Assembly: GCA_019637295.1 (NCBI GenBank) | Contig: JAHBVX010000005.1 | Location: forward strand, 124,001-188,000 | DNA: 64,000 nt | Source of the DNA: Polyangiaceae bacterium | GTDB taxonomy: Bacteria > Myxococcota_A > Polyangia > Polyangiales > Polyangiaceae | Direction of reading: 5' to 3' | In this document: positions 7,778 to 47,761 of the stretch, in pieces | Layout of the letters: each line of letters starts with the position of its first letter | Numbering within the stretch: the first letter of the stretch is position 1 | Made by a program: the position numbers and the translations under genes | Notes under the pieces: generated by a model | What the model was told of the DNA's origin: nothing | What the model saw: only the letters and a program-made list of their open reading frames with translations | The model's database searches: none

Positions 7778-9479
<1,702 letters not shown>

Positions 9480-9493
9480 ATCAGGAGCAAGCC

Positions 9494-9769
9494 ATGGAAG
9501 TGATCATTCGAATCCCCACCCCACTGCGCACGCTGACGGGAGGCCAGGAGGCCGTCAAGGTCAGCGGCGGTACGGTCCGCGAGGTCGTAGACAACCTCGA
9601 GAGCGCCCATCCGGGCATGAGGGACCGCCTGCTCGACGCCAAAGGCGTCCGGCGCTTCGTGAACATCTATGTCGGCGAGGAAGACATCCGTTTCCTGGAC
9701 GGTCTCGACACGACGCTCGCGGACGGACAGGAGATCAGCATCGTTCCGGCGATCGCCGGGGGGCGCTGA
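9494..9769 (+). CDS. ThiS/MoaD/CysO-like sulfur carrier protein
   Basis: 91-residue beta-grasp protein with IPTPLRTLTGG near the N-terminus and a C-terminal GGR. In CysO of actinobacteria the C-terminal Gly is adenylated and converted to a thiocarboxylate that donates sulfur to CysM; neighbours here are an E1, CysM and a JAMM hydrolase, exactly that set. The protein carries one Arg beyond the Gly-Gly, so trimming would be needed before activation. An AGGAG at 9483-9487, six bases before ATG 9494, fixes this start over the in-frame GTG at 9476. A MoaD or ThiS role is less likely given the context. Confidence 0.88.
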   Translation: MEVIIRIPTPLRTLTGGQEAVKVSGGTVREVVDNLESAHPGMRDRLLDAKGVRRFVNIYVGEEDIRFLDGLDTTLADGQEISIVPAIAGGR

Positions 9770-10054
9770 GTGGATCGCTTCGAACGTCAGCGGCGGCTGC
9801 CCGGCGTGGGGGATGCGGGGCAACGAAGGATCGGCGCGCTCGATGTGCGCGTGCGTGGCGGTGAGGACTCGCTGGTGGAGCTTCTGTACCTGCACCGGGC
9901 CGGCGTGGAGCGCGTCACCCTCAGCCCCACCGAGCTGCCGCCGGCCTTCGCCCACGCCGAGGCCTTCGACGACCCGGTCTGCCGGCGGCTGGGCGCCGCC
10001 GCGTGGCGGGCGACGCTCCCCATCATGGGTGCCCTGTCCGGTAGCGACCCATGA
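9770..10054 (+). CDS. Small E1-arm-like protein (ThiF N-terminal fragment homologue)
   Basis: 94 residues starting at GTG 9770, directly after the carrier stop. The first 20 residues, RFERQRRLPGVGDAGQRRI, match the N-terminal arm of ThiF/MoeB proteins (RY.RQ..LPG.G..GQ), including the Arg that in MoeB acts as arginine finger. The next part, VRVRGG followed by LVELLYLHRAGVERVTL, resembles the first beta-alpha-beta of the E1 fold, but the Gly-rich ATP loop and the Asp after the second strand are missing. It cannot be an E1 by itself. It may supply the arm missing from the E1 at 8721, or be a degenerate relic. It overlaps cysM by ATGA. Confidence 0.75.
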   Translation: MDRFERQRRLPGVGDAGQRRIGALDVRVRGGEDSLVELLYLHRAGVERVTLSPTELPPAFAHAEAFDDPVCRRLGAAAWRATLPIMGALSGSDP

Positions 10055-11001
10055 ACCGACGCCTGCACCGCTCCCGAAGGCTCGGCTCGATCCTCGAGGC
10101 CGTCGGCAACACACCGCTGATCCGTCTGGAGCGGGTGGCCCGCTCGGCGCCGAGCGTCGAGGTGTACGTGAAGCTCGAGTTCGCCAATCCGGGCGGCTCG
10201 GTCAAGGATCGTCCGGCGAGCCGCATCGTCAAGGACGCGATCGCCGACGGGCGTCTGGGTTCGGACAAGATCCTGATCGACGCGACCAGCGGCAACACCG
10301 GAGTGGCCTACTCCATGGTCGGCGCAGCGCTCGGCTTCCGCGTGCAGCTGGTGATGCCCAAGAACGTAACCAAGGCGCGCAAGGACATCACGGCGGCCTA
10401 CGGCGCAGAGTTGATCTTCAGCGATCCGATGGAGGGCTCGGATGGTGCCATCCGACTGGTGCGGCGGTTGGTGAGCGAGCATCCCGACCGTTACTTCTAC
10501 GCCGACCAGTACGGCAACCCGAGCAACCCCCTGGCGCACTACGACGGAACCGGCGCCGAGATCCTCGATGCGCTCGGCGATCGCATCAGCGTCTTCGTCG
10601 CCGGGCTCGGTACCAGCGGCACGGTGATGGGCACCACCCGCCGCCTGCACGAACACACGCGCCCCGTTCACTGCGTCGCCGCCGAGCCCGCGGAGGCGCT
10701 CCACGGCCTCGAGGGCCTCAAGCACATGGCATCCAGCATCGTCCCGCCCATCTACGATGCGACGCTGCCGGACGAGATCTTCCCGGTGGGCACCGAGGAT
10801 GGTTGGGAAATGGCCGACCGAGTCGCGGCCGAGGAAGGCCTGCACGTCGGGCACTCCACGGGGGCGAACATCTTTGCGGCCGTCCAGCTGGCGGAGCGGC
10901 TCCACCGAGCGCAAGGCGGCGGCACCGTCGTGACCATCGCGTGCGACCGGGGCGACCGCTACTTTGCGCCCATGAAGTGGGAGAAGCGATACACATGGTG
11001 A
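10051..11001 (+). CDS. cysM: CysM-type cysteine synthase (thiocarboxylated-carrier dependent)
   Basis: 316-residue PLP enzyme, paralogue of the cysK above. PLP lysine is Lys52 in NPGGSVKDRPASRIV, a version close to the KDRPA of mycobacterial CysM; the substrate loop TSGNTG is at 79-84 and GLGTSGTVMG binds phosphate. Mycobacterial CysM uses O-phosphoserine and CysO thiocarboxylate, forming a CysO-Cys adduct. The neighbouring carrier and JAMM gene argue for that chemistry here; O-acetylserine use is the alternative. ATGA overlap upstream and a 7-nt overlap downstream indicate translational coupling. Confidence 0.88.
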   Translation: MNRRLHRSRRLGSILEAVGNTPLIRLERVARSAPSVEVYVKLEFANPGGSVKDRPASRIVKDAIADGRLGSDKILIDATSGNTGVAYSMVGAALGFRVQLVMPKNVTKARKDITAAYGAELIFSDPMEGSDGAIRLVRRLVSEHPDRYFYADQYGNPSNPLAHYDGTGAEILDALGDRISVFVAGLGTSGTVMGTTRRLHEHTRPVHCVAAEPAEALHGLEGLKHMASSIVPPIYDATLPDEIFPVGTEDGWEMADRVAAEEGLHVGHSTGANIFAAVQLAERLHRAQGGGTVVTIACDRGDRYFAPMKWEKRYTW

Positions 11002-11519
11002 CCGACTCGACGAGGGCGCCCTGGGTGAACGGAGACCTCCGCATTCGAAGCAGCGTCCTGCGATCCGTGGCGGCGGCGGCGGTCGCCGCCTACGCTCGTG
11101 ACGAGGAAGCCTGCGGTTACCTGTGCGGGCCAGCCTCGGAGCCGCTGCTCGTGGACGAGGCCGTGGAGCTCGAGAACCTGGCCAACAAGTACCACGCGGC
11201 GGACCCCGAGGGTCATCCGCGCACCGGCAGAGAGTACTTCAAGGTCAACGCGCTGAAGTTCGAGCGAGCGATCGCCAGCGCCCAGAGCGCCGGGCGACCG
11301 GTCAAGGTCTTCTTTCATTCCCACCTCGACTGTGGTGCGTACTTCAGCGCCGAGGACGCGGCGAGCATGACCCTGGGGGGCACCGGCGGGCCGTCGTTCG
11401 AGTTGGCCTATCTCGTCACCGCCGTGGACGCGGGCGCGGTCACGGCCCATGCCCTCTTCGTGTGGGACGACACGGAGCGGGGTTTCGTCGAGTCCGGGTT
11501 CACGGAGGTGGCAGACTGA
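10995..11519 (+). CDS. mec: JAMM-domain metalloprotease, Mec-like
   Basis: 174 residues. The JAMM zinc motif is complete: HSH at about 114-116, seven residues, then SAED (HxH-x7-SxxD), with an upstream Glu in EEACGYLCG. Mec from mycobacteria hydrolyses the CysO-cysteine adduct to free cysteine and CysO; related QbsD trims extra residues from a carrier C-terminus. Both reactions would fit, since the carrier here ends GGR. It is cytoplasmic with no signal peptide. The ATG overlaps the cysM stop by 7 nt. A de-conjugation role on a ubiquitin-like tag is a less likely alternative. Confidence 0.88.
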   Translation: MVTDSTRAPWVNGDLRIRSSVLRSVAAAAVAAYARDEEACGYLCGPASEPLLVDEAVELENLANKYHAADPEGHPRTGREYFKVNALKFERAIASAQSAGRPVKVFFHSHLDCGAYFSAEDAASMTLGGTGGPSFELAYLVTAVDAGAVTAHALFVWDDTERGFVESGFTEVAD

Positions 11520-12802
11520 ACCCCTTCGCGCGCGCGCTGGTGCCGCTGGTCGCGCTGCTGGTCAGCGGCGCCGCGCGCGCCGATCTGGACGCGGATCTCG
11601 GCGCGCTCGAGCGAGCTTGGGGCCGAGCCGCGACGCGGCTGACTCGGCTCGAACCCAGGCTCGTTCAGCGAGGCGAGGTGGTCGCGGTCCGCCTGCCGGC
11701 CCACGCGCTCGATATTTCCCGGGACGACTGCAGCACGGTCGCGGTGATCGGCGCACCGTCTGCGCAGTTCGTGCTGCGCTTCGCGCCGCTGGCGGGAGGA
11801 CCGGCGTGGCCGAACGGAGAGAGCCCCGAGACCAGCAGCGCCGGCGCGGCGCAGCTCGTGCGCTGCGGCGTGCGCAAGTCCATGTTGTCTCGGCTGTTGA
11901 TCGAGATGCGCTCGCCTCGCGGGGTGCTCGAGGTGGTCGTCGTCGAGGGGCCGAAGCCCGCCTCCGCGCTGTCTCGGAGCCTGCCGCTCCGGGATCCTGG
12001 CCCGAGCGCTCCCTTTGGGCGAGTGGGACCGCGCCCCACGGCGGCGCCGACGGCGACGCGCGCCGCGGGCGCGCTCGAGCGCCAGCGGCGCGAAGGTGCG
12101 GCGCGGGTCGCGCGCGCCGAGGCGCGCGCGCTGCGTGACGGCACGAGTGAGTCACGTTTGCACCTCGACCCGGGCTGCCACGAGCTCGTGGTGCTCAGCC
12201 CCGATCCCGGAGCGGATCCCGAACCCCGCGACATCGACGCCGAGCTGTGGGCGTTGCCCAGCGGCCGGTCCCTGTCGAGGGATCACACCGTGTCGCTCGA
12301 CGCGACCCTGCCAGTCTGCGTTGGCGAACGCACGAGCGCGCGGCTGCGAATCGCGGGCGCAGAGCCGAGCGCGCTCATCACCGTCGTGCACGCCACTTGG
12401 CCGCTTTCCGAGGCGTTGCCCGAGCGCTGGGGCCCCGAGCCGCGCGCGCGGCTCGCGGCGACCCTCGGTCGGCACTGGCTTCGCAGCGTGACCGAGCCAC
12501 CGGTGTACGAGTCCCTGGGCGCGGGCGGCGTGACGCTGCTGCCGCTGCCGGTGACCCCCGGCCGCTGTTACCTGCTCGCGCTCGCTGGACTGCGGGGCCA
12601 GATGATCGGCGTCGCGGCCTCCGCGAGCTTTGGCACCCGCCGAGTGCAGAACCACTCGGGCCTCGGCGGTGACGGTGTGGCGGTGGCGTTCTGCGCCGTG
12701 GACGACACGGCCACGTTCGAGATCGAGGCGCGGGGCACGGGGCTACTCTGGCTCGGCGCACTGTTCAACGTCTCCGGTGCCGAGCTCGGGGAGCTACCGT
12801 GA
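11516..12802 (+). CDS. Exported protein with three two-Cys repeat domains, probable CTG start
   Basis: I do not recognise a family. 428 residues if translation begins at CTG 11516. GGAGG (11504-11508) lies seven bases upstream of that CTG, and the frame from it gives a signal peptide (NPFARALVPLVALLVSG, cleavage near ARA-DL). GTG 11540 is possible but removes the Arg. Three domains each hold a pair of Cys about 40-46 residues apart: C72/C117, C221/C268 and C351/C393, with beta-rich hydrophobic patterns. A helical Arg/Ala segment (184-208) separates the first two. The same domain recurs four times in the next gene. Overlaps on both sides are 4 nt, so it appears to belong to the cysteine operon. 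Confidence 0.75.
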   Translation: MNPFARALVPLVALLVSGAARADLDADLGALERAWGRAATRLTRLEPRLVQRGEVVAVRLPAHALDISRDDCSTVAVIGAPSAQFVLRFAPLAGGPAWPNGESPETSSAGAAQLVRCGVRKSMLSRLLIEMRSPRGVLEVVVVEGPKPASALSRSLPLRDPGPSAPFGRVGPRPTAAPTATRAAGALERQRREGAARVARAEARALRDGTSESRLHLDPGCHELVVLSPDPGADPEPRDIDAELWALPSGRSLSRDHTVSLDATLPVCVGERTSARLRIAGAEPSALITVVHATWPLSEALPERWGPEPRARLAATLGRHWLRSVTEPPVYESLGAGGVTLLPLPVTPGRCYLLALAGLRGQMIGVAASASFGTRRVQNHSGLGGDGVAVAFCAVDDTATFEIEARGTGLLWLGALFNVSGAELGELP

Positions 12803-14463
12803 AGTCGTTCGCCCTCGCCTTGCTCCTGGCTGCCTGCGGTCCTCGCGCACCCGCGCCGGCGCCCACCCCCGGCGAGCCCTTCGGCCGCGTCGAGGGCACG
12901 CTGGACGGGCACGAGTTCCTGAAGTCGGACTCGGCCCGCGCGCGCGCTGCGGGCGCAGAGGAGTCGGAGGTGATCGCGGTAGGCGCCGGCAGCGCCGGCG
13001 ATCGCATCTCGAGCCTGTTCGCGCTGCCCGAGAGCGACTGCGGGCTCGTGATCGCGCGGGGCAACGACAGCGTCGAGGATGTCGATCTGTTCGTGTACGG
13101 TGACGACGGCACCGTGTTCGGCTCGGACGAGGCGCCGGACAAGACGCCGAGCCTCTTGGTGTGCCCCCCGCATCCGCGGCGACTGTTCGCTGTGGCACGG
13201 CTGGCGGCGGGGCACGGCGTCGTCGCCATCGGCGTGCAGCGGGTCTCGGCAGCGCGCGCCGAGGCGGTGGGCCGGTCGTTGCTCCCGAGCGGCGGAAGAG
13301 ACGCAGCGGAGGCGGCCGTCGCGACGTTCCCGCGTCTGAACGACCAGGTCAGCTCGCACCACCGAACCCTCGGCGGGAGCTGGCGGGAGGTGCGGCGCGC
13401 TGGCATCCCGCTCGACCCCCGGGTGGCGTCGCGCCTGTCCGTGGCCATCGCCAAGGACCGCTGCATCAGCGTGCTCGTGCTGCCCGCCAGCGACGTCTCT
13501 CACCTCGATGTCACGCTGCTCGAAGCCAATGGTCGAATCGCAGGCCGCGGACGCGCGCGCGGGCGCGAGCGCTTCTTGGTCGCCTGCGCCCCGGAGCGTA
13601 CGGACGTGACCGTCGAGGTGCGACCTCGAGCTGGCCAAGGCACCGGGGTCGTCGTCGTCTCCGAGAGCCGGGATGGGCACGCGGCTCTCGCGGGGGACGA
13701 GGCCTTCATGGTGGACCTCACGGCGCCCGCCAGCCCCGACGACTGGGCGCGGGAGCTCGACCGGCGCCTGGACGCGGCGGGCTACGGCGGCAGCGCGGTG
13801 GTCAGCCAGGGCACACTGCCGCTGGGGACGCGGACCAGCGTGGCGCTGGCGCTCGGAGCCGGGTGCTCGCGGGTGGACGTCGTGGGCGGACGACCGCTGC
13901 ATGGCGTGTTGGCGCAGGCCTGGACGGACGACGGCCAGCTCCTGGCCTCCGCGCGGGGGGTGTCCCAGGCAACGCTGTTCGTGTGTGGCGCGCCGCGACC
14001 GTCACTCGAGCTCGAAGCCCTGCAGGCCCCGGGGCCGCACCGCGTGATCGTCCGCCCGGACCCGGACGCCCCCGCCGTGTTCTCGCAGCATCCCCTCGCG
14101 GCGCACCGGCTGCTCGGCTTCGCCATGGCGCGCGGCGTGGGTCAGCGCGGCACGCACTTCGGCGGAGCGCGCGCCCTGCGCGTCACGTCGTCTCAGCGCG
14201 TGAGCATACCCATCACGGTCCCCATCGCTCGCTGCGTGGACGTGAGTGCGTCGGTGGGTGGCGGGGGCCGTGGACTGACCCTTCGGTTGCTCGAGGAGCC
14301 GGGCGGCAAGGAGCTCGAGCGCAGTCACGGCGCGCATGTGGTCGCCTTGCGCGCCTGCGCCCTCGATCGCGGTCGGACCCTGCTCGCGCGGGCAGAGCTC
14401 TTCCTCGATGCGGGTGAGAGCGACGCTTTGCTGGCTACCCGCCAGCTCACACCGCAGCCGTGA
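12799..14463 (+). CDS. Lipoprotein with four two-Cys repeat domains
   Basis: No recognised family. 554 residues; lipobox LLAAC (Cys13), so anchored in the envelope, with a Pro/Ala linker to about residue 25. Four repeats carry Cys pairs with nearly constant spacing: C81/C122, C222/C263, C356/C396 and C479/C520 (39-40 residues between). Each first Cys precedes a beta strand (xxVxVL), the middle has a D/G-x-x-L-x-L-x-x-x-x-G pattern, and the second Cys is usually followed by A, G or P. The fold may be a beta-sandwich like bacterial pre-peptidase C-terminal domains. GTG 12799 overlaps the upstream stop by 4 nt. It is probably last in the operon. Confidence 0.78.
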   Translation: MKSFALALLLAACGPRAPAPAPTPGEPFGRVEGTLDGHEFLKSDSARARAAGAEESEVIAVGAGSAGDRISSLFALPESDCGLVIARGNDSVEDVDLFVYGDDGTVFGSDEAPDKTPSLLVCPPHPRRLFAVARLAAGHGVVAIGVQRVSAARAEAVGRSLLPSGGRDAAEAAVATFPRLNDQVSSHHRTLGGSWREVRRAGIPLDPRVASRLSVAIAKDRCISVLVLPASDVSHLDVTLLEANGRIAGRGRARGRERFLVACAPERTDVTVEVRPRAGQGTGVVVVSESRDGHAALAGDEAFMVDLTAPASPDDWARELDRRLDAAGYGGSAVVSQGTLPLGTRTSVALALGAGCSRVDVVGGRPLHGVLAQAWTDDGQLLASARGVSQATLFVCGAPRPSLELEALQAPGPHRVIVRPDPDAPAVFSQHPLAAHRLLGFAMARGVGQRGTHFGGARALRVTSSQRVSIPITVPIARCVDVSASVGGGGRGLTLRLLEEPGGKELERSHGAHVVALRACALDRGRTLLARAELFLDAGESDALLATRQLTPQP

Positions 14464-37341: not shown

Positions 37342-37376
37342 GGGCGAACTCGAGTCAGAGTGCCTCGAGTTCGCCC
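37342..37376 (-). terminator. Perfect hairpin spanning the stop codon of the giant TPR gene
   Basis: GGGCGAACTCGAG (37342-37354) and CTCGAGTTCGCCC (37364-37376) are perfectly complementary over 13 bp with a 9-nt loop. The TPR stop codon TGA is in that loop, so on its mRNA one stem arm is the last coding bases and the other the first untranslated bases. No U-tract follows on either strand, so it is either a non-canonical terminator, a 3'-end stabilising structure, or a binding site. Confidence 0.5.
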
Positions 37377-40300
37377 ATCAGCTCACGCGCGGCGGTGTGC
37401 TCCGGGTTCTCGCTCAAGGCCTTGCTGACCAGGATCTTGGCGCGGCGCGGATCCCCCTGGTTGCGCGCGATCACAGCGAGCTGAAACTGGGCGTGAGCGC
37501 GCAGCTCCGGCGTGACCTCCTCCTCGCCCGCGCGCAGCATCGTGACTGCGCGAAACGCACGACCCGCCGTCTCCACGTCGTCCAAGTCGAGCGCGAGCTG
37601 TCCGAGCTCGAGGGCGAGCCGAGCGTTCTTCATGTCCATCTCGAACGCTCGGGTGAGGGAGACCAGTGCCTCGTCGAGGAAGCCCTCCTTCAGCTGCATC
37701 TGGCTCATCTCGCGATAGACCAGACCCAGCTCCTTGACCCGGCGACCGCGAGAGGCCGCCACTAGCTCGCTGAGCAACGTCATGCCCTCGTCGCCCCGTC
37801 CCACGAGGGTCAGCGCTCGGGACATCAGCACGGTTCCTTCGACGCTCTCTGGGCTGAGGCCACGGGCCTCTTCCAGCACGGCGAGCCCCTCCTGGGCGTG
37901 CTCCTCGGAGCGCAAGAGCAGCTCGCCCGCGGCGAGCAGCAGCCCATGTCGGGCTTGGACGGAGCCTTCGGCACCGGCGTCTTCGATCAACATGAGAGCG
38001 CGTGCCCGATGTTCGCCCAGGGCCTCGTACAACGCGCCGAGCCGAGAGCGCAGCTCGGCGTGCTCGGGCGCCGTCCTCAGCGCGCGCTCGAGTCCGCCGC
38101 GCGCGTCCTCGGGCCGCCCCGCTCGCTCGCAGGCTCCGGCCAGGGCCAGAGCCGTCCGGACCAACTCGTCGCCCTCGGTCAGGCTGATGAGCTTGCGATA
38201 CGCCGTCACCGCCGCATCGAAGCGCTCGGTCTTCTCATCCAGCGCGGCCAGCCGACGCCAGAGCTCCGCGTCGCCAGGCGCCTCGCGGGTCATCTCTCCG
38301 AGCCGTGCCCGCGCCGCATCGACATCCCCATGCTCGTCGAACAAGCGCACCAGGCGCAGGCTCAGCTCGCGCTCGCGACCCGGTTCGGCTCGCAGGGATG
38401 CACGCTCCAGGGCTTGGGCGAAATCCTCCGCGACGTCGGCGCCCACCTCGGTCGCTCGCTCGAAGGCCTCCACGGCCTCGTCGCTGCGCTCCAGACTGTC
38501 GAGCAATCGGGCGCGCGCCGCCAGCAGCTGAGCCGAGTCAGGTCCAGTCGGGAGCAGCTGCTCGATCAGCGCGAGCGCGTCTTCCGTCAGCGACGCTCGT
38601 CGGTGTGCGTCGAGCATCTCGTCGAGCAACGAGAGGTCCTCGGTCGCACGCAGCGCTCGGCCCAGCAGGCTCGCGGCGCGGCCCCAGTCTCCCCGCTCTC
38701 GACAGCCGGCCAGCAGCGGGTCGCGCAGGGGCGCGTGGCCCGGGCACGCCACGAAGCCCAGCTCCAGCGCGCGCTCTTGCCCCTCGGTGTCGAACAACTC
38801 GGCTCGCAATGCCAGCAGTCGTTCGGCGAGCGCCACGGCTTCGTCGCCGCGAGTCGCCGCCAGGACGCCCTCGAGCGCTTCGGCGGTGAGATACGGGTCG
38901 TCGCGCCCCTCGGCGAGTCGCAGCACCGCTTGCCAGACCTCTCGGCTGCTTCGGTCCCAGTCGACGATCGCGTAGTAGGTGTGAAAGGCGTCGTCCGTGC
39001 GGCCCAGTCGTTCGAACAGCGCGCCCAGCTGCAGCGACACCGCGCGAATGACCGTCACATCTTGACGATCCTTGCCCGCGTCGATGCGGGACACCAAGAG
39101 CGCGCTGAGCTCGTCGAGGCGGTCCTCGCGTTGGTAGAGCTGCGTGAGCAACTCCGACGCTCGCTCGTGACTGGGATCCTCTTCCAGTATCTCGCGCAGC
39201 AGCTGGGACGCATCGTCCACCTTGCTCTCGTTCAGGAGCAAGTTGGCCTGCTCGAGCCTGAGCCGGGCGCGGTCCGACGCGGACTCCACCAAGGGCACGG
39301 TCTGCTCCAAGATCTCGACCAGGCGCGCGCGGTCGTCGAGCTCGCGGTACACGTCGAGCAGCGGCTCCCACGCCTCTCGGTCCTGAGGCTCGTGCCGTAG
39401 AATCGCCTCGTAGATGCTCGCCGCTCGCCGCAAGTCCCCGAGCTGCTCGCGGATCTTGGCGGCCACCGCGAGCCGGCGCGCGCGGGCGTCGTCAGCGGGC
39501 AGGCGTGTGGCGGCGTCCTCTTCGAGGGTGAGTGCGGCCTCCAGCTCGCCTGCGGATTCGAGCCGCTGTGCCAGCTCCAGGCGAAGCCAGGCGTCGGCCT
39601 CGTCACCGAAGCCGTCCGGACGTGCGACTCCAGCCTCGAGCAGCCGTCGTGTTGCCGCGACGTCACCGAGGGACTCGGCGAGAGCGACCCCCTCTCGCAC
39701 CACCTCGAGAGTCACCTCGGGCAGCTTGGCCAAGAGCAGCAGCGCCTCGAGCAGCTTCTCGGGAGCACCTGTGGCGCGGGTCACGCTCTCGAACAGGGCC
39801 GCCGCCCGGGAGTCGTCCGGGTGAGCGGCGAGCGAGCGGCGCAACATGACCTCGGCGCGCTCCAGATCCGGAGCGAGCTCCAGCGCGCGCTGCAAAGTGT
39901 CCACACCCCGGGCGGAGGCGCCCTCCGTCGCGAGCAGCAGCTCCGCCAGACGGTAGAAGGGCTCGGCGCCGACCTTACCGAGCTTGCCCTTGGGCATCGA
40001 CGCCAGACGCTGCTCGAGCACCCGCGCTTCCTCCGCGCTGTCCCCGAACTGCTGGAAGACCCGTGCCAGCGCCTCCCAGGCTCGGTCCTCGACTCGCTCG
40101 GCCCGGTCGAACTCTGCAGCGAGCGCCACCGCGCGAGCTCGCAGCTCGGCATCCACGGCCGCGAGGCCGCCCAGGTGCCGAGCGTAGAGGTGCACGAGGT
40201 CCGCCAGGGCGAGGCTGGCTGCGGTGGGCGACTCGGCGCGCGCCAACCGGCCACGCATCGCTCGAGCCAAGAGCTCGTGACGCCCGCGATCCGCCAGCGC

Positions 40301-43300
40301 CCGCTCCAGGGCCAAACCTTCGCCGTCGTGCTCGAGCGCCGACTGGAACGCGCTCTCCACGAACTCCTCGGCCCGAAGCCGATCGTCGCTGCGCTCCGCG
40401 ATCTCGGCCAAGTCGAGTAGCGCCTCGGCTCGACTCGGAGCGTCCTCTCCGTCTTCGCGGCCGAGCACCAGCAACAGCGCACGGTACATCCGCTCCGCGC
40501 GATCGAGCTGTCCTTCCTCGAACGCCAGCCGCGCCAGAGCCTGCAAGATCCCTGGGTGGGCCGGGTTGATCTTGTTGGCGATGTCGAGCTCGGCGATGGC
40601 CTCGGCCCGCCGACCTGCCGACAGGCACACCCGAGCGAGCTGAAAGTGCGTGAGCGCGCGGTCCTTGGGCTTGCGAGTGCCGTAGCGCTCGACCTGGTCA
40701 CGCAGTACCCGCACGGCCTCGTCGAAGCTGCCGGCGCGCGCGTGAGCATCCGCCAACGAGCGACGGATCGCCGTCTCGTCCGGGTCCAGCTCGGCAGCCT
40801 GCTCCAGCAACTCCACCGCGCGCAGTGGCTCGCCGACCCGGCGCAGGTACAGGTCCGCGGCCTCGCGCAGCAGCGCGAGACGACGGCGGTCGTCGCTGGC
40901 ACCGCTCGCGTCTCGAGTCAGCAGGTCCGCCAGCGGGCCCCACTCCTCGGCCTCTCGGTACAGCGCCGCCAGTCGCTCGCGAATGGGCGCACCGTCGAGC
41001 GCCACGCTCAGCGCCGCCTCGAGTCGGGCGCGCGCCGTGTCCGGGTCGCCGGCCGCGGCGTACGCCTCGGCTAGGCTCAGCACCCGGGGCCCCAGCGCCT
41101 CACGGCTGGAGCCTGCGCACATCCACTCGAGGACGTGCGCAGCGTCCAGCGGCTGGCCGGCTTCCATGTAGAGTCGACTGAGTTCGCCTAGGCTCGCCTC
41201 GCCCCCAAGCGCGGCGCCCTCACGATGGTCGGCGATCGCCCGGGCCACATCGCCGGCCTTCCCTTCGGCCGTCTCGGCCGCTCGGGCCCAGAGCACCGCC
41301 GCGCGCGTCAGGTCCGAAGCCCGCGCTCGGACCCGGGCTTGCTCTTCCCAAAGCGCCGTGAGGTCGGCGAATCGGTCCGCGTCCTCCAGCAGCTTCGCGT
41401 AGCGACTCACGACCGCTTCGGCGACGTCGTCGGCGGCGTCCTGAGCGAACAGTCGGGCGAACAACTCGATGGCGCGCGCCGGGTTCTGCAGCTGATCCGA
41501 CGCGATGCACGCCGCGTCCCGCAGGAAGGTGCGCTGCCTGTGCTGTTCGAAGGGCAGCTCGTGGCCCAGGACCAACAGCTCGACGACCTGCTCGTGGCGG
41601 CCGTCTGCCGCGTGCCGTGCCGCCAGCTCGCCCAGCGCCCAGGCCGCGGCCCGCTCGGGTCCGGCGGCCTCCGGAGCCTGCGGAGCTGCGAGCCACGCGG
41701 TCCTGGCGCGCTCGAAGAGCTCCGAGAGCAGCAGCTTGGCGCGTTCGCGGTCGCCGCCCTCGAGCCCCGTCACGTCGCAAGCGGCCGTCCACTCGCCGGC
41801 TGTCACGAAGGCCGCGATGCTGTCGGACAGCTGGTGGGTTCGATCGCGGTGCAGCGCGCCGAGCTCGAGCCACAGGGTGCGCGCCGCCTCGGGATCCGAG
41901 CTGCTCCGAGCTTGCTGCGCGAGCCGCTCGGCGACCTCGTCGTAGCGCTCCAACACGCCGAGCAGGCGCACGAGCGACCTGAAGCTCTGTTCGTCCGCAC
42001 CGTGGTCGCGCTCCACCAGTTGCCAGGCCTCGACCGCGCGCTCCGGAGAGGCGAGGCGCTCCGCGAGGAGCCAGGCCACCCGCACCCGGTCGTCTCGCGC
42101 ACCGCTGCCCCCGCGCAGCTCTGCGCGGGTCTGCAGCGCCTCTACCAAGTCGGCGTCGCGACCGGCGCGCTCCAGCACGTCGCACAGCGCGTCGAGCGCC
42201 ACGAGATCCCCCGCGTCGCCAGCGAGTCGCTCGCGCAAGCAGCGGATCGCGCGAGACAGATCGTCCAAGTGGGTGGCCGCGACGCGTGCGACCTCACCCA
42301 GCGCCTCGCGGCGCTCTAGCGGATCAGAGGACAACCCCGCGACGCGCTCGAGCACATCCGCCCGCTCGGCGTGACGCTCCAGCTCGGCGAGCAGCGGGGC
42401 CAAGCTACGGGCGGCGTGCAGCGCGGCGTCGGCGGCGTCCCCCGCGAGCTCCAGGGCACGCTCGAACAGCTCCACCGCGCCGGTCACGTCGCCGAGCTCG
42501 TCGCGTCTCACCTCGGCCGCCTCCAGCACCAAGCTGCGCTCCGCGACCTCGTCGCTGACCCCGTCGGCGACGGCCACCAGCACCTCGACGCGCCGGTCGG
42601 GCATGCCCAGCTGCTGCGACAGGCGCGCCAACTCGGCTCGATAGCGAGCCTCGCTGGGCACCAACCCCACCAGCTGCGCGACAGGCTCCACCGCGCCTTG
42701 AACGTCGCCAAGCTCGCCCAATCGCAGCGCCACGATGCTCTCGAGACCCGCGATGCGCTCGTCCTTCGTGCGGGCAAGCTCGAGCTCCACCTCCAGCATG
42801 CGCGCGACGTCCAGCAGGGAGCCGACCCGCGAGTACTGATCCTTGAGCCACGCAGCGGCCGCGTGGCGCACGCTGAGCCCGCTGCCCTGCTTCGGGCTCT
42901 CGCTCGGCGCCATGGAGTCGCGAGCGGCTGGCAGCGCGACCAACCGCTCCAGCAGGGTACGCACGAGCTCGCTGTCCGCACCGTCCTTCAACATGGACTC
43001 GATCAACTCGTAGCCCCGGACGGCGTCGCCCAAATCCAGCCACAGCCCGGCGATGCGACCGCGCAACGCCTGCGGATCGGTGGCAGCCGTCGCTTCGTTC
43101 AGGCGCGCCGCGAGCAGCTCGATCAGCGATTCGGTGCGGCCGTCCCGCTCGTACAAGCGCTCGAGGGAGGCCTCGACCCGCGAGTCCTGTGGGGTCAGAC
43201 GCAGGAGTTCCTCGAGATAGCGGATGGCGCGATCCGAGTTGGACGCGAAGTCCTTGGCGGCCATGGACGCCTCGCGCAGCAGGTCGATGCGTTCGGCGGG

Positions 43301-46300
43301 CGCCTCGACGCGGACGAGGGCCCAGTCGTACAGCTCGAACAAGTCGTCCCATCGACCCTGTGCGTTGAACGCCAGCTTGAGCCGATCGAGCGCCCAGCTC
43401 GCGGCGGGCGAGAGCGAGAGCACCCGACGCAGCAGCAGCACGATGCGCTCTTGGTCGTCGAACCACTCCTCGTGAAACTCGACCATGCGGCGTCCGAGCT
43501 CTTCCGCCACCTCGGGCGTCAGCGGGCGCTCGAGGGCCCGCGCGTAGGCCTCCGAGAGAGGCTCCGGCCGATCCAAGCGGCGCGCCAAGCGCTCGGCTGC
43601 ATCCCACAGTTCGCCTTCGTTCGCGCGTTCCTCGGCGCCGCGCAGCGCGATGGCGTAGCCGGCCTCGTCATCGTCCCGGTAGCACCCCAGCAGCTCCACG
43701 AACCAGCGGCCCCGCGACTCGGCCAGCTCGTCGATCCCGGCGCTGACCGCGAGCAGCGACTCGAGTAGCTCTGCGCGACCCTCGGGGGTCTCGCTCGCTG
43801 ACGCGAGGCGCTCGAGCAGGCGGGCGGCCTTCGATCGGAGCTCGTCCAGGCCCAGCGCCTGCTTGACCAGCTGCAGCGCGCCGGCGTCCTGCGGCGCGTG
43901 ATCGAGCACGCCCTCGATGACGTCGAGCGCCTCGCTGGGGCGCTCGAGGGGCCCCAGCAACAGCTCTGCGCGAGCCAGATCCACTTGCGTCCGACTGTCG
44001 CCCTCCGTCCGCTCGCGCAGCTCCCCCAGGGTCACCAGCGCCTCTTCGGCGCGCCCGCTGGCACCGAGCAGCCGGGACAGCTCCGTGAGCACGTCCACTC
44101 GCTCGGGGTCCTGCGCCAGCACGCGTTGGTAGACCTCGATGGCGCGCTCGGGACTGCCAAAGGTGGTCTCCTCCTGGCTGGCCCACGCGAGCAGTACCAC
44201 CGTCGGATCGCTGGCGCGGCGCGCACGCAGCTCGAACAGGAAACGGCGGTCGTCGATCCGCTCCGGGGTCAGCTCCCCGGCAGCCAAGAACACCTGAAAG
44301 GCATCGGCGAGCTTCTGGGTGTCGTCCGCGTCCTCCGCGAGCAGCTCCCGGAACAGGCCAGCCACCTCGTCGCGGCGCTCCGCCAGCGGAGCGAGGGTCG
44401 TGGCCTTGGCGAAGAGCACCGCGCGCCGGCGGGGGGGCTCGAGCTCGACAGCGGCCAGGATCGTGTCGAGCAATCGTGCGTACGGCAGGTGGGCAGAGTC
44501 GGCGGCAGCCTGGGCTTCGAGCGCCAGCACCCGCGCCAGCGCCTCGGGGCGGGCCGTATCATCCGCGAGCACGATGGGCACGACCTCGAGCAGTGCGTCC
44601 CATTGCCCGCTCTTGGCGTAGCTGCCGACCAGTCGCAGCGCCGCCTCCGCATCCTTGGGCGCGATGGTGAGCACCCGCTCGTACAAACGCCGCGCGCGCT
44701 CTTCATCCATGGCGGCCTCGGCCAGCGCCGCACCTTCGAGCCATGCTCGCCTGGCCTCGTCGTTGCTGCCGAGTTGCTTGGCCAGCACGATCCCCAGCTT
44801 CTCGAGCAGGCCCGCGCGCTCCTCCGGCGCCGCGACCGCGACCCGGCGCTGCAGCACGGCGCGCAAGGTGTCGGCGTCGTTGTTGGAATTGGCGAGCAGC
44901 TCGATGGTCTCGAGCTGTCCATCGTCGAGCGCTGCGGAGTCGAGCAGCTCCCGATAGTGGGTGAGCGAGCGGGTCACGTCACCGCGCTCGGCGCACACCT
45001 CGGCCATCCGTGCCACGGTGGCTACGCGCCGCGCGCCCTCCACCAGCGGCAGTGCTCGCTCCAGCTCCGCGTACAGCGCAGCCAGATCCCCGGTTCGCGC
45101 GAACAGGTCGACCAACGCGGCGTGCGCCACGAGATCGCGCTCATCGTCCGCGACCGCCGCTCGAAACGTCGCGATGGCCCCGCTCGGATCCGCCAGCTCG
45201 GTGCCCTGCAGGCGCGCCATCGCGTGCAGGAGCTCGCGTCGCCGACGAGGCTCAGTGGCCTTCTCCAGGGCAGAGCTGTAGAGCGCCAGGCGCTCCTCGG
45301 GGTTGCCGCCTTGCGCCAGCAGGTCATCGATCATCCCCATCAGCTCGGCGTTGCCCGGCTCGAACGCGAGGGCGCGCCGCAGGGCTTGCACCGCGCGGTC
45401 GACCTCGCCGGCCGCGACCAGACCCTCTCCGGCCTCGCGCGCCAACTCGGCCAACTCGGGGCGATCCACGGCTCGGTCACCGAGCGCTCGACTCAGCGCT
45501 TCGGCCCGAGGGCCCGGCGCTCCGAGCTGGTCTCCCGCCTGGCGAACGCGCTCCAGCCACGGCCCGAGCGGCGCCTCGAGGTCTACCGCGATCGACAGCG
45601 CTCGCGCGCAAATGGCGAGCGCGCGCTCCGGGTCGGCCAGCTGTCCTTGGGCGAGCTCGGCGGCCTCGGCCAGCACGTCGAGGCGTTGCTGCTCGCCCTC
45701 GGCCAACTCGCTCTTGGCCTCGAGTAGCCGTAGTAACCCCGGACCTGGTCCCTCGGCACGATAGACCGGCTCCAGCACGGCCACGGCGCCCGGACGCGCG
45801 TCCTCGTTCGCCAGCAGCTTCTCGAGCGCGGAGCGGAGCTGGGCGTTGGCTGGGTCTGCCTCCAGGGCCCGCGAGTACGCGTCGAACGCGCCGTCCAGCT
45901 CCCCCAGGCGGGTCAGTCGGATCTGCGCCAGGCGCGCGAGGATCGGCGGCCACTCCTCGCGCGGTGCCTGCTCCACGTCGCGCTCCAGGATCCACGCGAG
46001 CTCCTTCCACTGCTGCTCCTGCTCCAGGAGCGGGATCATCCTCGCGTGCGCCTCTCGACTCGGACCGTACTGGGCGATGAAGGCGCGCCAAGCGCCCAGC
46101 GCTTGAGCCCGATCGCGTCCCTGTCCGGTGCGAAGCTCGGCGGCGCGTAGCGCCAGCGCACGGGCATCCTCGGGGTTCTTCGCCCGCTGTGCGCGGCGCT
46201 CGAGCACGAACACGAGGTTCTCGACGTCCTTCGAGCCCTCGTACAGCGCGCTGAGCCGAGACAGCGCTTCGTCAGCCCAAGGCGAGTCCACCAGCGCTCG

Positions 46301-47761
46301 CCAGGCCACCGTCGCCCGCTCTGGCTCGGCGAGCTCGCCTTCGGCCAGCTTCGCCAGCCGGCGGGCAGCCGTCAGTCGCACCTCCGCATCGGGCTCGAAC
46401 CGTACCCAGGCGTCGAGGGCGGTGGCCAGGCCCCGCAGGTCGCCGCTCTCCGTGAACATCTCCGCGAGCTTCTTGGCCGCAGCCAGCACGGCGCCGTCAT
46501 CTTCCCCACCGTCGAGCACCTGCTGCAGCGCTGCCTGAGCGCGTTTGGCGTCACCCGCACGCAAGTGAACGAAGCCCACGTCCGCCCCCACACGCGCGCG
46601 CGCCGCAGGATCCTTGCACGTGGCCAGCGCGCGAGTCAGCAGGCGGGCTGCATCACCCGGCTGATCGAGGCTGAGCGTCAGCTCGACGTACGCCTGACGC
46701 ACCTCGTCGTCGCCTGGCTCCGCCGCCACGACCGGACCGAGCAGTTCGAGGGCGCCCGTAGGATCGCCCGCCGCTCGCTTGGCCAACCCCAGCCGCCGCT
46801 GAACCTCCAGCCGCCGCGGTCCACGCGCCAGCTTGAGCTCGACGTTGAGCAGCTCCAGCTCGCGCGCAGCGAGACCGAGCTTGCCGTACGCGTCGCTGAG
46901 CGCCGCTGCCACCCGTGCGGCAACGGCCTTGTTGTCCAGCAGGCCCTCGGCCACGTTGCGCGCTCGGACGTGATCCGGCTGGCTAGCCAGCACGGCCTCG
47001 ATGTGAGGCACGGCGCGGTGCGGCTCGCGGGTCGACTCGGAGTAGAGGTCGATCAAATGCTCGCGCACCAAGAACGCCTCGGCCTCGGGCGGCGGTGGAT
47101 CCCGCAACAGCGCTTGCTCCAGCACCTTGGTGGCCTCCCGGGGCTTGCCCTGTCGAATGTACGAGCGCTCGAGGGTCTCACGCGCTCCGGTGTGGCTAGG
47201 GTCGATGCGCAGCAGCTTCTGGCACACGTCGATCAGGACGTCGTCCACCCCTTCGGCCGCTTCCAGCACGCTCAGGGCCCGATTGAGGAGCTCCGCCTGG
47301 GCCTCCGGCTCGCGCTGGTGCGCCGCCAGCTCCGCGTACAGCTTCGCCAGTCGCGCCAGATCGCCCTTTCGCTCGAGCAACACCTGCAGCCGATGCGCGG
47401 CCAGCTCGTGTCCCGGGACGACCGCTAGCGCGCGATCGATGAAGGTGATGGCCCCATCGGGATCGTCGAAGTCGTCCGCGAAGAAGCTGGCGGCGTTCAG
47501 GAAGATGGCGGCTTGGTTGTCAGGCTGGACGAGCTTGATTCGGCGGTCTTGGGCCAGGTGCTCGTAGGCGAACGCGAGTTCGGCTGCCTTCTCGTCGCGC
47601 CGCGCCGTCGCGTGCAGCTTCATCCACAGCGCCGTCACGTCCTGCCCCTTGGCGGAGGCGGTCACCAGCGCGTCCAAGATGGGATCGGGGCTGTCCAGGG
47701 GCTGCTCGAGCAACGCGTCGAGCTCGTCGATGCGCAGCACTCGCGATGGGGTCCGTGCCAT
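37355..47761 (-). CDS. Giant tetratricopeptide-repeat protein (3468 aa)
   Basis: One uninterrupted 10.4-kb frame. The protein is almost wholly helical, rich in Ala, Glu, Leu and Arg, and made of several dozen degenerate TPR units with the W/L-G-x-Y/F ... A ... A-x-x-x-x-x-A-L-x-x-x-P spacing (for example GAITFIDRALAVVPGHELAA). No signal peptide or membrane segment is seen, so it is likely cytoplasmic. Such solenoids act as protein-interaction scaffolds; I see no catalytic domain at either end. Start ATG 47761 with start-adjacent ARTPSRVLRIDELDALLEQ. It is a single-gene unit, divergent from the polyphosphate enzyme and ending in a strong hairpin. Function unknown. Confidence 0.9.
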   Translation of the reverse strand: MARTPSRVLRIDELDALLEQPLDSPDPILDALVTASAKGQDVTALWMKLHATARRDEKAAELAFAYEHLAQDRRIKLVQPDNQAAIFLNAASFFADDFDDPDGAITFIDRALAVVPGHELAAHRLQVLLERKGDLARLAKLYAELAAHQREPEAQAELLNRALSVLEAAEGVDDVLIDVCQKLLRIDPSHTGARETLERSYIRQGKPREATKVLEQALLRDPPPPEAEAFLVREHLIDLYSESTREPHRAVPHIEAVLASQPDHVRARNVAEGLLDNKAVAARVAAALSDAYGKLGLAARELELLNVELKLARGPRRLEVQRRLGLAKRAAGDPTGALELLGPVVAAEPGDDEVRQAYVELTLSLDQPGDAARLLTRALATCKDPAARARVGADVGFVHLRAGDAKRAQAALQQVLDGGEDDGAVLAAAKKLAEMFTESGDLRGLATALDAWVRFEPDAEVRLTAARRLAKLAEGELAEPERATVAWRALVDSPWADEALSRLSALYEGSKDVENLVFVLERRAQRAKNPEDARALALRAAELRTGQGRDRAQALGAWRAFIAQYGPSREAHARMIPLLEQEQQWKELAWILERDVEQAPREEWPPILARLAQIRLTRLGELDGAFDAYSRALEADPANAQLRSALEKLLANEDARPGAVAVLEPVYRAEGPGPGLLRLLEAKSELAEGEQQRLDVLAEAAELAQGQLADPERALAICARALSIAVDLEAPLGPWLERVRQAGDQLGAPGPRAEALSRALGDRAVDRPELAELAREAGEGLVAAGEVDRAVQALRRALAFEPGNAELMGMIDDLLAQGGNPEERLALYSSALEKATEPRRRRELLHAMARLQGTELADPSGAIATFRAAVADDERDLVAHAALVDLFARTGDLAALYAELERALPLVEGARRVATVARMAEVCAERGDVTRSLTHYRELLDSAALDDGQLETIELLANSNNDADTLRAVLQRRVAVAAPEERAGLLEKLGIVLAKQLGSNDEARRAWLEGAALAEAAMDEERARRLYERVLTIAPKDAEAALRLVGSYAKSGQWDALLEVVPIVLADDTARPEALARVLALEAQAAADSAHLPYARLLDTILAAVELEPPRRRAVLFAKATTLAPLAERRDEVAGLFRELLAEDADDTQKLADAFQVFLAAGELTPERIDDRRFLFELRARRASDPTVVLLAWASQEETTFGSPERAIEVYQRVLAQDPERVDVLTELSRLLGASGRAEEALVTLGELRERTEGDSRTQVDLARAELLLGPLERPSEALDVIEGVLDHAPQDAGALQLVKQALGLDELRSKAARLLERLASASETPEGRAELLESLLAVSAGIDELAESRGRWFVELLGCYRDDDEAGYAIALRGAEERANEGELWDAAERLARRLDRPEPLSEAYARALERPLTPEVAEELGRRMVEFHEEWFDDQERIVLLLRRVLSLSPAASWALDRLKLAFNAQGRWDDLFELYDWALVRVEAPAERIDLLREASMAAKDFASNSDRAIRYLEELLRLTPQDSRVEASLERLYERDGRTESLIELLAARLNEATAATDPQALRGRIAGLWLDLGDAVRGYELIESMLKDGADSELVRTLLERLVALPAARDSMAPSESPKQGSGLSVRHAAAAWLKDQYSRVGSLLDVARMLEVELELARTKDERIAGLESIVALRLGELGDVQGAVEPVAQLVGLVPSEARYRAELARLSQQLGMPDRRVEVLVAVADGVSDEVAERSLVLEAAEVRRDELGDVTGAVELFERALELAGDAADAALHAARSLAPLLAELERHAERADVLERVAGLSSDPLERREALGEVARVAATHLDDLSRAIRCLRERLAGDAGDLVALDALCDVLERAGRDADLVEALQTRAELRGGSGARDDRVRVAWLLAERLASPERAVEAWQLVERDHGADEQSFRSLVRLLGVLERYDEVAERLAQQARSSSDPEAARTLWLELGALHRDRTHQLSDSIAAFVTAGEWTAACDVTGLEGGDRERAKLLLSELFERARTAWLAAPQAPEAAGPERAAAWALGELAARHAADGRHEQVVELLVLGHELPFEQHRQRTFLRDAACIASDQLQNPARAIELFARLFAQDAADDVAEAVVSRYAKLLEDADRFADLTALWEEQARVRARASDLTRAAVLWARAAETAEGKAGDVARAIADHREGAALGGEASLGELSRLYMEAGQPLDAAHVLEWMCAGSSREALGPRVLSLAEAYAAAGDPDTARARLEAALSVALDGAPIRERLAALYREAEEWGPLADLLTRDASGASDDRRRLALLREAADLYLRRVGEPLRAVELLEQAAELDPDETAIRRSLADAHARAGSFDEAVRVLRDQVERYGTRKPKDRALTHFQLARVCLSAGRRAEAIAELDIANKINPAHPGILQALARLAFEEGQLDRAERMYRALLLVLGREDGEDAPSRAEALLDLAEIAERSDDRLRAEEFVESAFQSALEHDGEGLALERALADRGRHELLARAMRGRLARAESPTAASLALADLVHLYARHLGGLAAVDAELRARAVALAAEFDRAERVEDRAWEALARVFQQFGDSAEEARVLEQRLASMPKGKLGKVGAEPFYRLAELLLATEGASARGVDTLQRALELAPDLERAEVMLRRSLAAHPDDSRAAALFESVTRATGAPEKLLEALLLLAKLPEVTLEVVREGVALAESLGDVAATRRLLEAGVARPDGFGDEADAWLRLELAQRLESAGELEAALTLEEDAATRLPADDARARRLAVAAKIREQLGDLRRAASIYEAILRHEPQDREAWEPLLDVYRELDDRARLVEILEQTVPLVESASDRARLRLEQANLLLNESKVDDASQLLREILEEDPSHERASELLTQLYQREDRLDELSALLVSRIDAGKDRQDVTVIRAVSLQLGALFERLGRTDDAFHTYYAIVDWDRSSREVWQAVLRLAEGRDDPYLTAEALEGVLAATRGDEAVALAERLLALRAELFDTEGQERALELGFVACPGHAPLRDPLLAGCRERGDWGRAASLLGRALRATEDLSLLDEMLDAHRRASLTEDALALIEQLLPTGPDSAQLLAARARLLDSLERSDEAVEAFERATEVGADVAEDFAQALERASLRAEPGRERELSLRLVRLFDEHGDVDAARARLGEMTREAPGDAELWRRLAALDEKTERFDAAVTAYRKLISLTEGDELVRTALALAGACERAGRPEDARGGLERALRTAPEHAELRSRLGALYEALGEHRARALMLIEDAGAEGSVQARHGLLLAAGELLLRSEEHAQEGLAVLEEARGLSPESVEGTVLMSRALTLVGRGDEGMTLLSELVAASRGRRVKELGLVYREMSQMQLKEGFLDEALVSLTRAFEMDMKNARLALELGQLALDLDDVETAGRAFRAVTMLRAGEEEVTPELRAHAQFQLAVIARNQGDPRRAKILVSKALSENPEHTAARELMGELEAL

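Follow-up and report, generated by a model that had tools for sequence, protein, structure and literature searches.

The closest described counterparts of the domain considered here are the PPC domains (Pfam PF04151), exemplified by the collagen-binding domain s3b of ColG (1nqd) and the beta-jelly-roll of Tk-SP (3afg). In the halolysin SptA, a disulfide between Cys303 and Cys338 in the jelly-roll extension guards against cleavage (PMC3158780), and the authors describing DeCLIC compare its N-terminal domain with Tk-SP, the ColG collagen-binding domain and PliG (PMC12664993). We analyzed a stretch of 64,000 nucleotides from a Polyangiaceae bacterium (GCA_019637295.1, contig JAHBVX010000005.1, positions 124,001 to 188,000 of the forward strand; hereafter the window, in which all coordinates are given), where two neighboring genes, P0001 and P0002, encode seven segments with a pair of Cys residues each, three in P0001 (P1R1 to P1R3) and four in P0002 (P2R1 to P2R4). 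These segments probably repeat a single beta-sandwich domain that is PPC-like (collagen-binding-domain-like) and some 95 residues long and that would belong to a myxobacterial subfamily with a disulfide between strands 3 and 6; P0001 and P0002 would be non-catalytic proteins of the cell envelope.

All seven Cys pairs (Table 1) lie exactly where the sequence-only reading had placed them, and these 14 residues are every Cys of both proteins except the lipobox Cys13 of P0002. In the order of the repeats, the paired Cys are separated by 44, 46, 41, 40, 40, 39 and 40 residues; with the same number of Cys placed at random, the share of trials in which all pairs had a spacing of 40–47 was about 2.5e-4 for P0001 and 2.5e-5 for P0002. 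Conservation is stronger evidence than the spacing. The six Cys of P0001 are invariant in 31 of 31 aligned homologs, mostly 30–49% identical to P0001, and of the 25 homologs of P0002 all have the lipobox Cys as well as paired Cys one to six, 24 have Cys479 and 14 have Cys520, the rows without Cys479 or Cys520 being loci where the fetched stretch ends early; all nine Cys of P0002 are invariant in the 13 full-length alignment rows. Of 60 family genomes, 44 have P0001 and 46 have P0002.

The seven segments were compared with each other and with a larger set of myxobacterial domains. In one relative (L082), a PF04151 match includes the Cys pair seen in the repeats and is matched by the P0002 profile too. 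Its 81-residue Cys-pair domain was used as the query of a search that gave matches in 31 of 39 relatives, and 54 copies taken from other myxobacterial proteins, 53 of them with both Cys, constitute what we call the bridging family. The profile of this family matches six repeats with probabilities from 94.4% (P2R4) to 99.2% (P2R1), reversed controls not exceeding 1.4%, and both Cys are in register with the profile in all seven repeats, P1R1 included. With every Cys masked, five repeats still reach 92–99% and P2R4 80%; because the match survives masking, the homology does not depend on the Cys. Comparison of repeat to repeat, accompanied by shuffled and reversed controls, yielded 97% for P1R2 and P2R3, 96% for P2R1 and P2R2, and 95% for P2R2 and P2R4.

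The relation to PPC domains was established through the bridging family. PF04151 has no match in P0001 or P0002 at E-values up to 10, and a match of P0002 to the Pfam family Unstab_antitox (E 0.14, below the cut-off) was rejected as a chance one. At a loose threshold PF04151 was found in five of 20 members of the bridging family, the best match scoring 29.7 bits (Pfam cut-off 25.9 bits), and it matches two lipoproteins with four copies at 37.6 and 43.5 bits, the matched segment holding both Cys. Against a PPC profile derived from further myxobacterial PF04151 matches, sequence common to both sets having been removed, the bridging family scores 94.8% (E 5.5e-8; reversed 0.3%) and, with Cys masked, 96.3%. 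The family also shares with PPC domains a D-x-D strand motif and a G-x-Y-x-V strand in the second half. When the repeats themselves were compared with the PPC profile, P2R1 reached 65.7–78% and the other six were not significant. Since the window proteins have no PF04151 match, we regard their repeats as a variant resembling PPC and do not assign the two proteins to PF04151.

AlphaFold models of P0001 and P0002 were built on alignments of seven rows, drawn from the window and from relatives; each has a mean pLDDT of 81, and together they contain seven beta-sandwich units. In all seven, the first Cys opens strand 3 or comes one residue later, and the second Cys is the last residue of strand 6 or adjacent to it (strands counted with DSSP, some of them merged or short in P1R1 and P1R3). 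Strands 3 and 6 of an eight-strand jelly roll are antiparallel neighbors, so that the two Cys positions face each other; as the proteins are exported to an oxidizing compartment, the bond may be expected to form. Among the best structural matches in the PDB, the PPC-type C-terminal jelly roll of Tk-SP matches P2R4 with Z 11.5 (2.4 Å over 93 residues) and P1R2 with Z 10.0, and the ColG collagen-binding domain matches P0002 with Z 9.7–9.9. Others among the best are GOLD domains (Z about 10) and the DeCLIC N-terminal domain (Z 10.1 on P2R2); the VIA lists from which such matches were read do not exclude families absent from them. The top Foldseek rows (Cry toxins, Vip3, cupins) were disregarded as whole-chain alignments at 20–30 Å rmsd. 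Among PDB sequences the bridging profile has three weak matches, Tk-SP among them (E 0.026 and 0.041), and the P0002 profile has only a chance match.

In the bridging family D-x-D and a further D are found at +13, +15 and +29 from the first Cys. Only P2R1 and P1R2 keep this acidic motif, which makes one copy per protein: in P2R1 D94, D96 and D110 are present in 25 of 25 homologs, and in P1R2, where the motif contains an insertion, D239 and D241 are present in 31 of 31 and D256 in 30 of 31. One may guess from these residues at a metal site.

The domain is not restricted to this locus. The bridging profile matches 81 of 235 Myxococcota genomes (E 1e-5), with up to 15 listed matches per genome and seven in the genome of the window, and several of the relatives are lipoproteins with four tandem copies, built in the same way as P0002. 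No description of this myxobacterial Cys-pair domain was found in the open literature. It is a variant of the known PPC kind and not a new fold; it is widespread within a single phylum, and no family has been defined for it. About one third of the sampled Myxococcota genomes carry it, often in several copies per genome and in tandem in lipoproteins, and the PPC model mostly misses it; naming it as a family would allow annotation of many hypothetical proteins.

Table 1. Features of the P0001–P0002 locus and the adjoining gene cluster (window coordinates; percentages are profile-comparison probabilities).
Feature	Coordinates	Strand	Evidence
P0001, 428 aa, exported protein, three Cys-pair domains	11516..12802	+	
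P1R1, residues 50-152, Cys72/Cys117, most divergent copy	11663..11971	+	strand positions and register shared; sequence homology suggestive only
P1R2, residues 203-298, Cys221/Cys268, conserved D239, D241, D256	12122..12409	+	bridging family 97.3% (95.0% Cys masked); Tk-SP Z 10.0
P1R3, residues 325-422, Cys351/Cys393	12488..12781	+	bridging family 96.7% (92.1% Cys masked)
P0002, 554 aa lipoprotein, four Cys-pair domains	12799..14463	+	
Lipoprotein signal of P0002, lipobox LAAC13	12799..12837	+	sequence; Cys13 invariant 25/25
P2R1, residues 54-155, Cys81/Cys122, invariant D94, D96, D110; nearest PPC	12958..13263	+	bridging family 99.2% (98.7% masked); PPC profile 65.7-78%
P2R2, residues 196-295, Cys222/Cys263	13384..13683	+	bridging family 97.9% (96.8% masked); DeCLIC N-terminal domain Z about 10
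P2R3, residues 332-425, Cys356/Cys396	13792..14073	+	bridging family 97.5% (96.9% masked)
P2R4, residues 454-552, Cys479/Cys520	14158..14454	+	bridging family 94.4% (80.0% masked); Tk-SP Z 11.5
Cysteine synthase (cysK, PALP), at the head of the linked cluster	7778..8740	+	Pfam above cut-off
ThiF/MoeB-type E1-like adenylyltransferase, 252 aa, without N-terminal arm	8721..9479	+	Pfam ThiF above cut-off
ThiS/MoaD-fold sulfur carrier, C-terminus AIAGGR	9494..9769	+	Pfam ThiS 56 bits
94-aa gene like ThiF N-terminal arm only	9770..10054	+	ThiF-model match
Second cysteine synthase (cysM-like, PALP)	10051..11001	+	Pfam above cut-off
JAB/JAMM metalloprotease (Mec-like), directly upstream of P0001	11034..11519	+	Pfam Prok-JAB above cut-off

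Both genes are covered from end to end, and they overlap by four bases, the stop of P0001 with the start of P0002. P0001 begins with a signal-peptide-like segment ending in ARA, and the lipobox of P0002 reads LLLAAC. At 11516 P0001 has CTG, an unusual first codon, which overlaps the stop codon of the preceding JAB gene; no ATG, GTG or TTG is found in frame ahead of the signal-peptide-like segment close to the JAB stop, and the CTG is the likely start of P0001. The named relatives of the window genome are Polyangiaceae and other metagenome-assembled genomes of Myxococcales. In one relative (L139, G020:C1:2537000-2556000) P0001 and P0002 lie several kilobases apart on opposite strands and are still neighbors. 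Elsewhere in the window, a 3468-aa protein consisting largely of tetratricopeptide repeats is encoded at 37355-47761 on the reverse strand.

Upstream of P0001 lies a cluster whose gene order is shared by most of the 20 relatives examined and which, judged by Pfam matches above cut-off, is equipped with the CysO/Mec gene set: a ThiS-fold carrier, a ThiF-type E1, PALP enzymes (two) and Prok-JAB. NCBIfam matches in the cluster to SAMP1, desampylase and the SAMP-activating E1 are all below cut-off. The 94-aa gene, which about half of the 20 relatives have in the same position, matches ThiF models over their first 50 positions only, and the ThiF of the cluster begins at about position 17; the two genes possibly encode a split E1-like enzyme. 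The carriers of relatives end in GG, GGR, GGA, GGC, GGL or GGSAR, so some of them need trimming to expose GG, which is perhaps done by the JAB protease.

The genetic linkage to cysteine synthesis is the least expected part of the finding. In 29 of the 32 family genomes holding both P0001 and JAB, across many genera, the two genes are within 10 kb on one strand, 20 of these pairs within 500 bp, and the genes downstream of P0001–P0002 are kept in few relatives. This conservation suggests that P0001–P0002 serve the same physiological state as the cysteine cluster, and it offers a testable tie between sulfur metabolism and the cell envelope. If the linkage were due to chance or to synteny that decays slowly, and had no functional tie to cysteine synthesis, the domain identification would not be affected. 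This is a possible though somewhat doubtful explanation: the close linkage and the poor retention of downstream genes speak against it, while P0001–P0002 are present without JAB in some genomes (P0001 in 12 of 44), which is also a point against our overall interpretation, and the phyletic association is weak (32 genomes with P0001 and JAB, 12 with P0001 only, seven with JAB only and nine with neither; Fisher p = 0.064). Phyletic co-occurrence of P0001 and JAB was rejected as stand-alone evidence for this reason. A more specific proposal, that an exported P0001–P0002 complex works with the sulfur-carrier cysteine pathway and, for example, senses, stores or delivers cysteine or thiol equivalents in the envelope, we consider unlikely; if true, it would mean that a PPC-like scaffold was recruited into sulfur metabolism.

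Several observations count against the identification of seven PPC-like, disulfide-bonded units. Neither P0001 nor P0002 is recognized by Pfam or NCBIfam. P1R1 scores 7.3% with the bridging profile and 48% (reversed 7%) with a profile combining the bridging family and the other six repeats, so that its sequence homology is weak and no more than suggestive. Both Cys are kept in 168 of the 169 ungapped among 172 distinct copies of the bridging family, a conservation partly due to selection as the query bore the Cys. The models rest on alignments of seven sequences (pTM 0.54–0.56), P1R1 and P2R1 are hardly covered by structural matches, and the disulfide, very probably one per repeat, is deduced from strand positions. 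The most likely role of P0001 and P0002, as binding or scaffold proteins, is proposed by likeness to PPC domains.

The independent origin of the seven units as a beta-sandwich (a jelly roll as in GOLD, CUB, CBM and Cry domains), without homology to PPC domains, could explain why the Foldseek and VIA lists mix jelly-roll proteins (GOLD with Z about 10, SIDT1, C-CPE, Cry toxins), why middling Z values are common in structural lists and why most repeats lack a direct match to the PPC profile. We regard this origin as very unlikely, as six repeats are tied to the bridging family even without their Cys, the bridging family is tied to PPC domains with reversed controls near zero, and copies of this family pass the PF04151 cut-off. 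Of what the sequence-only reading had proposed, seven copies of one domain unrecognized by family name are borne out, six by profile and P1R1 suggestively, and the predicted folds, which it had asked to compare, share a common sandwich with Cys at like strand positions; its tandem disulfide-stapled sandwich stands as to the sandwich, the staple being deduced, and its divergent PPC domain stands for six repeats via the bridging family and for the fold, with P1R1 suggestive and no PF04151 match in either protein. It is highly improbable that the Cys pairs bind metal, act as a redox-active dithiol or accept sulfur and so link the proteins chemically to the cysteine pathway: absolute conservation of the Cys and strong operon linkage to CysK/CysM, ThiF, ThiS and JAB would fit such chemistry, but the paired Cys are 40–46 residues apart at strand ends with no CxxC-like motif, the same pair recurs across the broad family in many further proteins, lipoproteins included, and P0001 and P0002 carry export signals, which the pathway enzymes do not show.

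Under the interpretation as PPC-like modules, a disulfide would connect strand 3, at its start, with strand 6, at its end, pin the edge strand and protect the domain from unfolding and proteolysis; a protective role as in SptA is the simplest reading. P0002, with four modules, would be a lipoprotein anchored in the membrane, and P0001, with three, its soluble exported partner; the gene overlap would couple their synthesis. Both would be cell-envelope proteins without catalytic activity that serve for binding or as scaffolds, like other PPC domains, with one acidic, possibly metal-binding, site per protein (P1R2 and P2R1).

Several known systems resemble parts of this locus. The GOLD domain of p24/TMED is likewise an eight-strand sandwich (Z about 10) and is disulfide-bonded; its bond, however, would join other strands than in the repeats, the domain is eukaryotic, and the GOLD family is not among the Pfam matches of P0001 and P0002. 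The gene cluster resembles CysO/CysM/Mec of Mycobacterium tuberculosis, with a carrier having GG near its end, a cysteine synthase, a JAB protease and an E1-like enzyme (PMC3227635). It differs in that the synthase is present twice, the E1 is possibly split and a pair of exported repeat proteins is encoded alongside; the carrier is often extended past GG, and the Pfam scan of the E1-like protein gives ThiF only, with no rhodanese domain. The DeCLIC N-terminal domains (6v4a) lie in tandem in the periplasm and have a similar sandwich fold (Z about 10), but they are part of an ion channel and have demonstrated calcium sites, and no disulfide is mentioned in the text searched (PMC12664993). The C-terminal extension of SptA has a modeled beta-jelly-roll and an experimentally supported stabilizing disulfide between Cys 35 positions apart, whereas it is archaeal, attached to a subtilase and has its Cys placed in loops by the authors (PMC3158780). 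From the PPC domains of ColG and Tk-SP, finally, the repeats differ in their conserved Cys pair, in the lack of an attached peptidase, in scores below Pfam detection and in the loss of the acidic motif in five of the seven copies, and they are like them in fold (Z 9.7–11.5), strand order and profile homology.

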